From a virus, in IMG/VR virus record IMGVR_UViG_3300046616_000202, positions 1 to 22,517 of that record: DNA of 22,517 bases; one strand, written 5' to 3'. Under the pieces are notes generated by a model. It saw only the letters and a program-made list of their open reading frames with translations. It had not been told where the DNA came from and ran no database searches. Numbering within the stretch: the first letter of the stretch is position 1; each line of letters opens with the position of its first letter. Of this stretch, positions 8,635 through 11,665 are shown piece after piece. The translations under genes and the position numbers were made by a program.

Positions 8635-8729
8635 CAGATGTACCTCACGATGAACCCGATGCCCCAGGCGATGCTGCCAAGTGTCAGCGCGATAGCGAAA
8701 GCAGCCGGCCACGTTTCCAGGGTGATCAT
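8634..8729 (-). CDS. 31-residue single-pass membrane peptide
   Basis: ATG 8729 overlaps the TGA of the 88-residue gene (ATGA), and the stop overlaps the next ATG. The product MITLETWPAAFAIALTLGSI ends AWGIGFIVRYI, one long hydrophobic helix. Coupling on both sides supports expression. The function is unknown. Confidence 0.5.
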   Translation of the reverse strand: MITLETWPAAFAIALTLGSIAWGIGFIVRYI

Positions 8730-8992
8730 TGGCGCGCCTGCTCTTGCTCCGCGAGGGCCTGCTGTGCCTCGCGGTCTGCCCTCGCCTCGCGCGCGAGCCT
8801 GATGCGCATGCGGTCGAACCAAAACTGTTCCGCCATGTTGTGGCGCAGCCTCGCGACGGAGTCTTTGGGATCAGCGAAGAACATCGCGACACGCTTGTGT
8901 CCCTGCAGGTTTGTGTAGACCAGATCATGTGACAGCCTGCCGAGACTGTCGGTTGTCCCGCGGGGCACAACGTCTATGCGCACACGCTTCAT
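8726..8992 (-). CDS. 88-residue hypothetical protein with charged helical tail
   Basis: ATG 8992 has a GGAG about eight bases upstream (TAGGAGCAAATGCC). The N-terminal half (MKRVRIDVVPRGTTDSLGRL ... HKRVAMFFADPKDS) looks strand-rich. The C-terminal half is a long Arg/Ala/Glu/Gln helix (LAREARADREAQQALAEQEQ) with coiled-coil character. It follows hairpin A in the leftward cassette. No function is recognised. Confidence 0.7.
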   Translation of the reverse strand: MKRVRIDVVPRGTTDSLGRLSHDLVYTNLQGHKRVAMFFADPKDSVARLRHNMAEQFWFDRMRIRLAREARADREAQQALAEQEQARQ

Positions 8993-9028
8993 GGCATTTG
9001 CTCCTATGAAACAAGGGGTTTCCGCACG

Positions 9029-9069
9029 GCCCTAAGGCCCGTAAGCTTGTGCAGCTGCGGGCCGTAAGG
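9029..9069 (-). repeat. Intergenic GCCCTAAGGC hairpin, copy A
   Basis: The plus strand shows GCCCTAAGGCCCG (9029-9041) and, after a 16-base loop, CGGGCCGTAAGG (9058-9069). The inner stem is GGCCCG/CGGGCC. A further CCT/AGG pairing follows a bulged G. Two other intergenic spaces (copies B and C) carry the same 10-mer with changed but still pairing stems. It is not followed by a T-run on either strand, so it is not a classic terminator. Confidence 0.6.
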
Positions 9070-9086
9070 TCGCTTGTGTGTGTTGC

Positions 9087-9281
9087 TCAGTAGCGCCGAT
9101 GTCTGTCCGCTAGACGCGTCCAAGTGTCGTCAATGAGATCGGCGCGCCGCGCTATGACGCCGAGCGTTCCCCCTAGCCCGTGCTTGGCCGCGTAGACCTT
9201 GCGCGCATCCCACGCACATTCGGCCGCTATGGTTTCGACGGGCAAGCGGTGACCAGGGGCGAAACATTCGTAATTCTGCAT
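9087..9281 (-). CDS. 64-residue hypothetical protein
   Basis: ATG 9281 has a strong TAAGGAG eight to nine bases upstream. The product MQNYECFAPGHRLPVETIAA is followed by ECAWDARKVYAAKHGLGGTL and a basic end. It is predicted to be mostly helical with a His/Cys-containing N-terminus. The repeated 18 bp motif lies 16 bp before the ATG, and hairpin A follows the gene. The function is unknown. Confidence 0.7.
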   Translation of the reverse strand: MQNYECFAPGHRLPVETIAAECAWDARKVYAAKHGLGGTLGVIARRADLIDDTWTRLADRHRRY

Positions 9282-9297
9282 TTCAGATGCTCCTTAG

Positions 9298-9315
9298 TTG
9301 AGAGGTGGCAGGTAT
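9298..9315 (-). promoter_or_regulatory. Repeated 18 bp motif, copy 2
   Basis: This copy is identical over 18 bp to the one at 5666-5683 (minus strand ATACCTGCCACCTCTCAA). It fills the gap between the stop codon of the 260-residue gene and the SD of the 64-residue gene, ending 16 bp before that ATG. A promoter here would give a very short leader, as T7-type promoters often do. Confidence 0.5.
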
Positions 9316-10097
9316 CAACGCACAACGAAACCGGATGTATCCCGCTTGGCGTTGCCCTTGGCGTATAGGGCAATGACGTGATTGCGCGGATCCAGAAAGC
9401 GCAGGTCCGTATCGTCCCCATTGGCCACGGGCGCGCCCATGAAACCCTCAGTGATCGCACGGGACACGCGGGCCTTATCGGAGAACACAGCCGCGACGTT
9501 CAAGCCATTGGCTAGCGCGGCCCTTGCGTGCTCAGTGTTGCCGTCAGCAAGCGAGAAGGTGAGCGCATAGTTGGCAGGGATGCCGCGGCGATTTGCGAGC
9601 TTGGTATAATCGTAAAACTGCACCGTCGGGAAATGTTCGAACACGTTGCGGCCGTTCGCGTCCCGCACCGCTTCCCACCGAATATCGCTTGTGCCGTTGA
9701 GGCGGAACACGGGCTTAAAGCCATTGCGCCGCGCAAGCTTGATTGCCTTGCTGATATCCGCGACCAAATGGGCCATGAACTCATGACGGGCCGCAAAGAA
9801 GGCCTTGGTTTTACGTATGCGCGCGGCTTGGATTGTGTTGCGCAACCCATTGGCCACGTCCTGGGCCGTTAGGATACCGTGGCCGGCCATGATGCCACCG
9901 CGGCCCGCAGTATTGAGGCACGCGGCCTTGCATCCCGCCGTGGCCATTGCGCACACGTTGTGCCCAGAGAGGCTTGCGGGCGCGAGGTGGAGGATGAACG
10001 TCCAATAGCCTGCACCGCGGCCCTTCTCGGTCTTTGGGTTGCCGGGGGTGAGAAGGCGGAAACCACGGGAGCCTTTGGGGAAAGCGGTAGGCGTCAT
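9315..10097 (-). CDS. Conserved phage protein of the Gp88-like type with Cys cluster, 260 residues
   Basis: ATG 10097 has AGGA nine bases upstream. The N-terminal third contains the compact motif FILHLAPASLSGHNVCAMAT followed by AGCKAACLNTAGRGG, with cysteines at 49, 56 and 60 (CX6CX3C). Later signatures are PVFRLNGTSDIRWE and VQFYDYTKLANRRG. I associate this set (Cys cluster with CLNTAGR, RLNGTSDIRWE, YDYTK) with a conserved phage protein family related to mycobacteriophage Gp88-type proteins, whose biochemical role is not established. The cysteines could bind a metal or Fe-S cluster (inference). The gene stands alone between two copies of the repeated motif, unlike the overlapping genes elsewhere, which suggests a separately controlled cassette gene. 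Confidence 0.85.
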   Translation of the reverse strand: MTPTAFPKGSRGFRLLTPGNPKTEKGRGAGYWTFILHLAPASLSGHNVCAMATAGCKAACLNTAGRGGIMAGHGILTAQDVANGLRNTIQAARIRKTKAFFAARHEFMAHLVADISKAIKLARRNGFKPVFRLNGTSDIRWEAVRDANGRNVFEHFPTVQFYDYTKLANRRGIPANYALTFSLADGNTEHARAALANGLNVAAVFSDKARVSRAITEGFMGAPVANGDDTDLRFLDPRNHVIALYAKGNAKRDTSGFVVR

Positions 10098-10113
10098 ATG
10101 TCGATATCCTGTT

Positions 10114-10126
10114 AGGTGGCAGCTAT
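10114..10126 (-). promoter_or_regulatory. Repeated motif, copy 3 (12/13 match)
   Basis: Minus strand ATAGCTGCCACCT differs by one base from the other two copies. It lies 16 bp before the ATG of the 260-residue gene, the same distance as copy 2 from its gene. On the plus strand the surrounding TTAGGTGGCAGCTATTGGGA superficially resembles an SP6 promoter with a one-base insertion, but that would direct antisense transcription. Confidence 0.45.
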
Positions 10127-10148
10127 TGGGACGTGGGTGTCCCCTAAT

Positions 10149-10188
10149 GCCCTAAGGCGGGAAGCCGTTAGGCGCCCGCCGTAAAGCC
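10149..10188 (-). repeat. Intergenic GCCCTAAGGC hairpin, copy B
   Basis: The plus strand shows GCCCTAAGGCGGG (10149-10161), a 13-base loop and CCCGCCGTAAAGCC (10175-10188). The inner stem GGCGGG/CCCGCC differs from copies A and C (GGCCCG/CGGGCC) by compensating changes. CCTAATGCCC precedes it, matching CCTAACGCCC before copy C. It lies between the 65- and 260-residue genes. Confidence 0.6.
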
Positions 10189-10201
10189 TATGTGCCCCGC
10201 G

Positions 10202-10399
10202 CTACTCGCCGCGATAGGGGCGCCAAGTCTTGCCGATATGCTGGCATTGTGGGCACGTCACAAGCGCCCAATTGCGTGTGCCGTCCGCGTGCGCATCGCC
10301 CGTGCGGCAAAGCATTTCCGGCCGGTCAAAGCTGGCACCACGGCGCTTCGCTTCGCTCACTGCGGCATGCTCTTGGTCGTTTAGCTGGTAGTGCATCAT
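10202..10399 (-). CDS. 65-residue protein with possible zinc-binding cysteines
   Basis: ATG 10399 (or the next codon, also ATG) has AAGGAA about eight bases upstream. The product MMHYQLNDQEHAAVSEAKRR ends in a segment with LCRTGDAHADGTRNWALVTC followed by PQCQHIGK. Three cysteines and two histidines, including CPQC, suggest a small zinc ribbon. Hairpins B and C flank the gene. No family is assigned. Confidence 0.7.
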   Translation of the reverse strand: MMHYQLNDQEHAAVSEAKRRGASFDRPEMLCRTGDAHADGTRNWALVTCPQCQHIGKTWRPYRGE

Positions 10400-10453
10400 T
10401 GGGCGTTCCTTAGGGTTGCGTTCGGGCCTAGCGTATCACAAGGCCCTCCTAAC

Positions 10454-10489
10454 GCCCTAAGGCCCGTAGGCACTAATGCGCCGCGGGCC
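10454..10489 (-). repeat. Intergenic GCCCTAAGGC hairpin, copy C
   Basis: The plus strand shows GCCCTAAGGCCCG (10454-10466) and CGGGCC (10484-10489) around a 17-base loop. It lies between the 67- and 65-residue genes. The left arm is identical to copy A over 13 bases, the loops differ, and the upstream CCTAACG matches copy B. Confidence 0.6.
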
Positions 10490-10516
10490 ATTCGGGTATC
10501 GTGTGGAGACCTTGCG

Positions 10517-10720
10517 CTAGGCTGGCTTTGCGACAGACACGACGGCCGCTTGACACTGGTCTAGCGTGAATAGCTTGCGGAAGCGCTTTCCGCTTGTGCC
10601 AAAGGCGTAGTCAACGGGATACTTTCCGTCACGCCTTGGGCGATGAATGGTGATCACCGTCCCGCTAAGGCGCCCATCGCTTTCGCGAGTGAATGCGCCA
10701 TGTGTACCGATTACGTTCAT
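10517..10720 (-). CDS. 67-residue basic hypothetical protein
   Basis: ATG 10720 has AGGGGC upstream. The product MNVIGTHGAFTRESDGRLSG continues TVITIHRPRRDGKYPVDYAF and ends with a helix. It is strand-rich, basic and likely a small beta barrel. It is followed by hairpin C. No known motif is seen. Confidence 0.65.
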   Translation of the reverse strand: MNVIGTHGAFTRESDGRLSGTVITIHRPRRDGKYPVDYAFGTSGKRFRKLFTLDQCQAAVVSVAKPA

Positions 10721-10733
10721 TGTGTGCCCCTGC

Positions 10734-10835
10734 TCACTTGCCGTTGTGGGCGGCGCTAGACGCGCCTGTGCGGTATGCGGCCAATTCGGCCTTGCGGATT
10801 GCCGCGATGATTACTTGCTGTTGCGTGCGTGACAT
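10734..10835 (-). CDS. 33-residue hypothetical peptide
   Basis: ATG 10835 gives MSRTQQQVIIAAIRKAELAA followed by YRTGASSAAHNGK, a single amphipathic helix with a flexible tail. A weak AAAGG lies upstream. It ends 13 bp before the next gene's start. The evidence is composition and spacing only. The upstream in-frame extension overlaps the 42-residue gene and was not used. Confidence 0.4.
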   Translation of the reverse strand: MSRTQQQVIIAAIRKAELAAYRTGASSAAHNGK

Positions 10836-11541: not shown

Positions 11542-11665
11542 ACCCGATCCGGCCCTATCATCAGGTAGATTATACCCGGATGATATTCCCCGCCGCCCTA
11601 ACCCGGCCGCAAGGCGTCGCGCCGCCGGGATCGGCAGGCCCATAGGCCCGTGGTCGACCGCATGT

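Follow-up and report, generated by a model that had tools for sequence, protein, structure and literature searches.

The HK022 put RNA is encoded in a phage early operon, folds into two hairpins, and antiterminates without any phage protein; a put site is found once per operon, close to the promoter. In T4-type phages, mobile cassettes are said to pair an early promoter with a stem-loop, reportedly an observation of Arbiol et al. from 2010. The intergenic CUUCGG/GTTCGG hairpins of T4 and phiEco32-like phages are very stable and have been linked to mRNA stability or processing (PMC8948821). The RNase III hairpins of the T7 early region (R0.3 to R1.1) are irregular structures that separate early genes and contain an asymmetric internal loop; R1.1 has 60 nt and a 4/5 internal loop and lies between genes 1.0 and 1.1 (PMC6121014). 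The STAXI motif consists of pseudoknot repeats with UUCG loops and occurs near anti-restriction genes and also near the Ssb and integrase genes of mobile DNA, while the cellular L17 downstream element is a 3′-UTR structure of one gene, for which G-U pairs and GNRA loops served to infer the strand (PMC2864571).

Here, we describe an element of ∼60 nt that early phage genes carry on the coding strand in their 3′ UTR and that matches no RNA family found described in the open-access literature or in Rfam 15. Three copies lie in the leftward early cassette of the window, i.e., the whole stretch of 22,517 nucleotides analyzed (IMG/VR record IMGVR_UViG_3300046616_000202). By description, the element is, like the put RNA, an early-operon phage RNA, with two hairpins in part of the family and probably no need for a phage protein; however, the put RNA is present once per operon near the promoter, whereas the element occurs in several copies at gene ends. 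Similar to the T4-type stem-loops, it borders shuffled early genes, and gene shuffling at the element was observed; those stem-loops are coupled to an early promoter, and some copies of the element are accompanied by a leader that is at most a candidate promoter. It shares with the T7 hairpins the irregular shape, the asymmetric internal loop, and the location between early genes. By contrast, it has 14 to 16 bp, a 1×2 loop, and a GNRA cap instead of the long duplex and 4/5 loop of R1.1, keeps a fixed spacing from stop codons, and is also found in phages without a T7-like RNA polymerase (RNAP). The CUUCGG/GTTCGG hairpins are likewise stable hairpins in phage gene gaps, but they have another loop class, and PMC8948821 describes neither a conserved internal loop nor a fixed stop distance for them. 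The element resembles STAXI in being structured and near anti-restriction genes but differs from its pseudoknot repeats with UUCG loops and has no Rfam match, and it resembles the L17 downstream element in its 3′-UTR location and in how its strand can be recognized, except that it follows many unrelated phage genes. Among these nearest published elements, none was shown in the open-access literature to share its architecture, and a prior description may exist elsewhere. The features of the locus are as follows.

8726..8992, minus strand: 88-aa gene, downstream of copy 1
9016..9077, minus strand: RNA element copy 1; stem 9036-9063, foot 9029-9038; 23 nt past the stop of the 64-aa gene
9087..9281, minus strand: 64-aa gene, stop ahead of copy 1
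9315..10097, minus strand: GP88-family gene (PF17338), downstream of copy 2
10128..10143, minus strand: second hairpin (HP2) behind copy 2, GGGAC-ACCCAC-GUCCC, from folding
10136..10194, minus strand: RNA element copy 2; stem 10156-10180, foot 10149-10158, UAAC loop; 21 nt past the stop of the 65-aa gene
10202..10399, minus strand: 65-aa gene, between copies 3 and 2
10424..10446, minus strand: second hairpin (HP2) behind copy 3, GGGCCU...AGGCCC, from folding
10441..10502, minus strand: RNA element copy 3; stem 10461-10489, foot 10454-10463; 27 nt past the stop of the 67-aa gene
10517..10720, minus strand: 67-aa gene, stop ahead of copy 3

A preliminary description of this DNA had drawn attention to a 10-mer, GCCCTAAGGC, that is followed by a 6-bp stem in three gene gaps. 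The 10-mer matches exactly at 9029, 10149, and 10454, with no fourth occurrence in the window, and, read on the minus strand (GCCUUAGGGC), it is the 3′ foot of the hairpin; the minus strand is the coding strand for all three hairpins, and UUAGGGC lies 3′ of each. The inner stems, GGCCCG/CGGGCC in two copies and GGCGGG/CCCGCC in one, were as described, and so were the CCTAAYGCCC that precedes two of the three copies, the missing T-run, and the confinement to gaps where genes do not overlap, i.e., behind the stops of the 64-, 65-, and 67-aa genes. The 64-aa gene family stands ahead of the element in many relatives. The variation in loop length, given as 13 to 17 nt, also holds (16, 13, and 17 nt); however, the “loop” is not unstructured but contains a C/U(A/U) internal loop, an inner helix of 3 to 5 bp, and a loop of 4 to 5 nt. 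On the minus strand, copies 1 to 3 fold as GGCCCG-C-AGCU-GCACA-AGCU-UA-CGGGCC, GGCGGG-C-GCC-UAAC-GGC-UU-CCCGCC, and GGCCCG-C-GGCGC-AUUA-GUGCC-UA-CGGGCC, respectively, with folding z-scores of −2.4, −2.6, and −5.4, and two of the three have a basal 5-bp helix under a C·U mismatch. The structural pattern (6 bp, 1×2 internal loop, inner stem, TTAGG-like foot) has exactly three matches in the window and three in total in 20 mononucleotide shuffles with two sequences each. Covariance model R1, which contains these copies, scores them at 56.8 bits (E 4e-13), 68.8 bits, and 65.6 bits, respectively. A look-alike hairpin at 11601 (minus strand) was excluded from the family by the covariance model.

Across the family, a 5-bp basal helix begins ∼14 to 19 nt past the stop codon and is followed by the C·U mismatch, a 6-bp helix G-NNNN-G in which the central pairs vary freely, an invariant C/U(A) 1×2 internal loop, a helix of 3 to 5 bp capped by a GNRA-type loop, and the conserved 3′ foot UURRGGC. 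After a short spacer such as AUUAG, a second hairpin often follows; many copies have it, including copies 2 and 3 of the window, but it is not universal. Folding of six natural contexts gave the basal, outer, and inner helices in each minimum-energy structure, with the inner helix displaced by one pair in copy 1 of relative L002.

In a pooled alignment of 50 sequences, representing 42 distinct copies, pairing is kept in 96.9% of cells, and two-sided, compensatory changes occur at 9 of 14 pairs. The claim made from the three window copies, that pairing is retained while the sequence changes, is correct. The covariation score of 0.49 exceeds the 0.21 of shuffles and the maximum of 0.14 on sliding, and RNAalifold, run without a supplied structure on the model-fitted alignment A5, predicted the same 14 pairs. 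One retrieval pattern fixed the outer stem. The open-stem pattern used for the IMG/VR scan that gave eight further contigs held the internal loop, some closing pairs, and the class of loop constant; it left the central outer stem and the inner stem open, and most of the covariation of the new contigs lies there. Loops among the 42 copies include 21 GAAA, 12 GCAA, and 2 UAAC, counts that are partly fixed by the retrieval pattern, and the same loops are present in copies that this pattern did not retrieve. On the coding strand, G·U pairs outnumber A·C pairs 47 to 1 (30 to 0 in the first, polymerase-bearing group alone). Because G·U on one strand is A·C on the opposite strand, it is the coding-strand molecule that has been selected, most likely as RNA. 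A boxA/boxB-like reading was rejected: pairing with UAGGG accounts for the CUCUA strand, which the CCCGAAC subtype lacks.

The stem starts a median of 23 nt past the stop codon (mean 23.2, SD 3.1 nt, n = 43) behind ∼29 groups of upstream proteins, as defined by simple k-mer clustering, while the spacing to the next start codon is more variable. The stop-to-element distance is therefore near-constant and independent of the upstream gene. In L176, each of four consecutive genes is followed by the element, the second being an ArdC gene (PF08401, PF18818). ArdC anti-restriction genes adjoin the element in two unrelated contigs (L176:306-1175 and L217:10565-11434), the one in L217 being recognized by sequence likeness only. 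Some genes of the same cassettes lack the element, which counts against the function proposed below: in L102, two of these genes abut without gap or element, and L084 has gene gaps with leaders but without the element. Absence of the repeats from relatives that keep the genes, an outcome raised in the preliminary description, is thus seen in some relatives and not in others, and the element is an optional, removable module.

The window is a genome fragment of a phage with a T7-like RNAP (PF00940) and a tyrosine integrase, and one of its tail-region proteins is 26% identical to a protein of vB_PaeP_p2-10_Or1, which we take to be a LUZ24-type podophage. IMG/VR relatives were collected via the polymerase and via the GP88 protein. 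The window’s own group comprises temperate phages with a T7-like polymerase, one of which is a prophage (G010) that ends at tRNA-Ser(tga) (L155:4064-5382) with the integrase adjacent. The adjoining DNA carries an IS element that matches ISBj4 of Bradyrhizobium japonicum at 99.6% identity; the host is, therefore, most likely Bradyrhizobium, as judged from this sequence match. In the G010 lysogen, the T7-like polymerase gene would sit at the far end, distant from the early operon. L002 has syntenic copies 1 and 2. In its copy 2, GGCGGG/CCCGCC is replaced by GGTGGG/CCCACC, a compensatory change from C-G to U-A, and in its copy 1, the outer stem is retained while the inner helix is swapped for GGG-GAAA-CCC. 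In L083, copy 3 lies in a 73-nt block of 96% identity with different flanking genes.

Model R1, built from 13 copies, gave 33 matches in the polymerase-bearing group, down to 44% polymerase identity; 1.06 Mb of sequence from other GP88-bearing phages contained no match. The IMG/VR scan with most stem positions open added eight contigs, all of which are members by the covariance model, with one to five copies each at E values up to 2e-5 plus a few weaker extra matches; several of these deviate from the pattern by which their contig was found. The final model, R3, had no match in 1.31 Mb of other phage DNA. With no match in this other phage DNA, the element does not lie widely at random positions, an outcome that the preliminary description had named as refuting. 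Searches in other collections were negative: one exact GGCCCG-type variant was not found in 84,980 GTDB genomes; an RNAP alignment in GTDB genomes gave 46 pattern matches with no relative among them; blastn with eight element variants had no match in 50,697 named phages; and the element was not found in the Bradyrhizobium phages Pasto and ppBjS10J-1. In Rfam 15, no family reached the gathering cutoff in the window, permissive scans giving sub-threshold chance matches only, and the radC motif RF01754 had nothing over the cutoff in 10 element-bearing records, with weak matches elsewhere in these records.

No T7-like RNAP (PF00940) was found in the eight further contigs. Because these contigs carry the element, a pause signal for the phage polymerase, as had been considered in the preliminary description, is unsupported. 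For the same reason, a T7-promoter reading of CATTAGGAGA was dropped. An all-against-all blastp of the ORFs of 12 genomes, several of them partial (E 1e-4), revealed no family spanning both phage sets among the matches listed; in these, queries matched only the window’s group of five, with at most five genomes each. Therefore, a trans factor is unlikely to be encoded by the phages, except as a very divergent or host-acquired protein, and any such factor is probably encoded by the host. Altogether, strong covariation and fixed stop spacing in phages without a detectable common protein family among the genomes compared point to a host-read signal in early operons, for which we found no earlier description in the open-access literature.

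We suggest that the element is probably a gene-boundary signal read by host cell machinery and, with a probability of about one in two, a 3′ processing or stabilizing hairpin that marks the end of early gene units. RNA processing and mRNA stabilization were among the functions listed in the preliminary description, and fixed stop spacing, covariation, and the sense-strand G·U bias make them the best-supported class of putative function. A ribosome at a stop codon ends just short of the position of the basal helix. This fixed distance, with the basal helix just past the ribosome, fits a hairpin that survives translation and guards or defines the 3′ end of the message. We suggest that a ribosome terminating at the stop codon would leave the element folded, that the folded element would stop exonuclease decay coming from the 3′ side, and that cleavage just 3′ of it, where the RNA is single-stranded for a short distance, would release the message from the gene that follows. 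In that way, newly acquired genes, including ArdC anti-restriction genes in some contigs, could be expressed as independent units of a shared operon, a possible mechanism by which new phage genes are made plug-and-play in polycistronic operons. More tentatively, the element may be a widespread, portable RNA punctuation mark that different phage lineages use directly behind early, partly anti-defense genes and that a conserved host machine, RNA polymerase or a ribonuclease, reads without a phage protein so that new genes become units of their own. A covariance search with the element also provides a handle for finding early and anti-defense gene cassettes.

As for the nuclease, G-C-A-U-U lies right behind the foot at the same place in 23 of the 42 copies and fits RN|WUU, the RNase E-type consensus; being present in about half of the copies, which are related, this match is only a hint of RNase E-like cleavage. 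A classical RNase III substrate would have a longer duplex than this core, and the S. meliloti RNase III has been reported to require longer double-stranded RNA than the Escherichia coli enzyme (PMC6121014).

Two serious rivals to a processing or stabilizing hairpin are recognition by a host RNA-binding protein and put-like action. The element could be bound by an RNA-binding regulator, a host protein or a phage protein of very divergent sequence, through which several early genes are controlled as a regulon at the level of translation or decay, as with the T4 gp43 operator hairpin. That internal-loop bases are invariant points to specific recognition, more than a passive stabilizer would need: C, U, the G-C closing pairs, and the GNRA-like loop stay fixed among freely covarying pairs, and the UAAC loop is that of the T4 gene 43 operator (PMC3014915). 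We nevertheless consider such a regulator unlikely, because no protein is common to both phage sets among the matches listed (several genomes being partial) and because spacing is tighter to the upstream stop than to the downstream start.

Put-like antitermination, in which the nascent core and second hairpins act in cis to let host RNA polymerase read through the early operon, would agree with the location in early operons, the tandem hairpins in part of the family, the invariant internal loop, and the independence from the phage RNAP, and it requires no shared phage protein, in line with none spanning both sets among the matches listed. However, copies are repeated from one gene end to the next with a fixed stop spacing, and the second hairpin is not universal; we regard this explanation as somewhat less probable still than a regulator site.

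The preliminary description had also considered mobile repeat units, and part of this idea stands. Identical elements occur with different upstream genes, and L096:5243-5301 can be derived exactly from two L103-type elements by recombination: it has its 5′ flank from one and its 3′ flank from the other, the switch falls in their shared 5′ half, and the gene that lies between the two is deleted. The elements thus act as recombination joints, whether or not they are selected for this, and short RNA elements in early operons can double as joints between genes. They also travel with genes: in L170 and L096, a gene with its own hairpin stands between the operon leader and a 76-aa gene, which lies directly behind the leader in L172-L175 and behind another gene in L171, in both cases without the hairpin. 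As a primary function, however, a DNA repeat for cassette exchange of the T4 promoter/stem-loop kind, or mobility of the REP or IS200/IS605 type, is disfavored and improbable: the G·U excess indicates selection on coding-strand RNA, the one exact-pattern scan of GTDB gave no host-genome repeats, and comparison of L096, L097, and L170-L175 yielded no clean empty site. A clean hairpin insertion into CATAG|GAG (L096/L097) was rejected, the hairpin-free relatives differing across the whole gap.

The least probable explanation is an intrinsic terminator or a phage-polymerase pause or promoter: a stable hairpin does lie shortly past the stop codons, but just two U residues follow in the foot UUAGGGC, a terminator scan called none of the three window copies, the downstream genes share the orientation, the element occurs in phages without T7-like RNAP, and a k-mer scan of five genomes returned no recurrent promoter-like word, so that polymerase pausing, intrinsic termination, and N4-type promoters are disfavored.

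Other short words recur in these gaps. A leader, AATAsCTGCCAC, at most a candidate promoter, lies 3′ of some element copies. In the window, the word AATA[CG]CTGCCA[CT] is intergenic at 10126, 9315, 5683, and 7847 (minus strand), 20 to 50 nt ahead of four genes (GP88, the 64-aa gene, RNA polymerase, and a small gene); the early gaps of G001, G010, and G018 have it as well, and it is loosely like a T7-type promoter or leader, as a candidate only. A second leader word, CCCTTGTTTCATAG(GAGCAAA), is present at 9000-9020 of the window (minus strand), at L084:1190-1212, and ahead of the element in L096 and L097. Its side of the hairpin differs among phages, being downstream in some and upstream in others, which further suggests shuffling of UTR modules. 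Finally, a tiny conserved peptide of ∼24 to 33 aa (MSRTQQQVIIAAIRKAELAAYR...NGK) is encoded at ∼10734-10835 of the window (minus strand), L083:2850-2947, and L002:9573-9648, and its neighbors otherwise differ among relatives.
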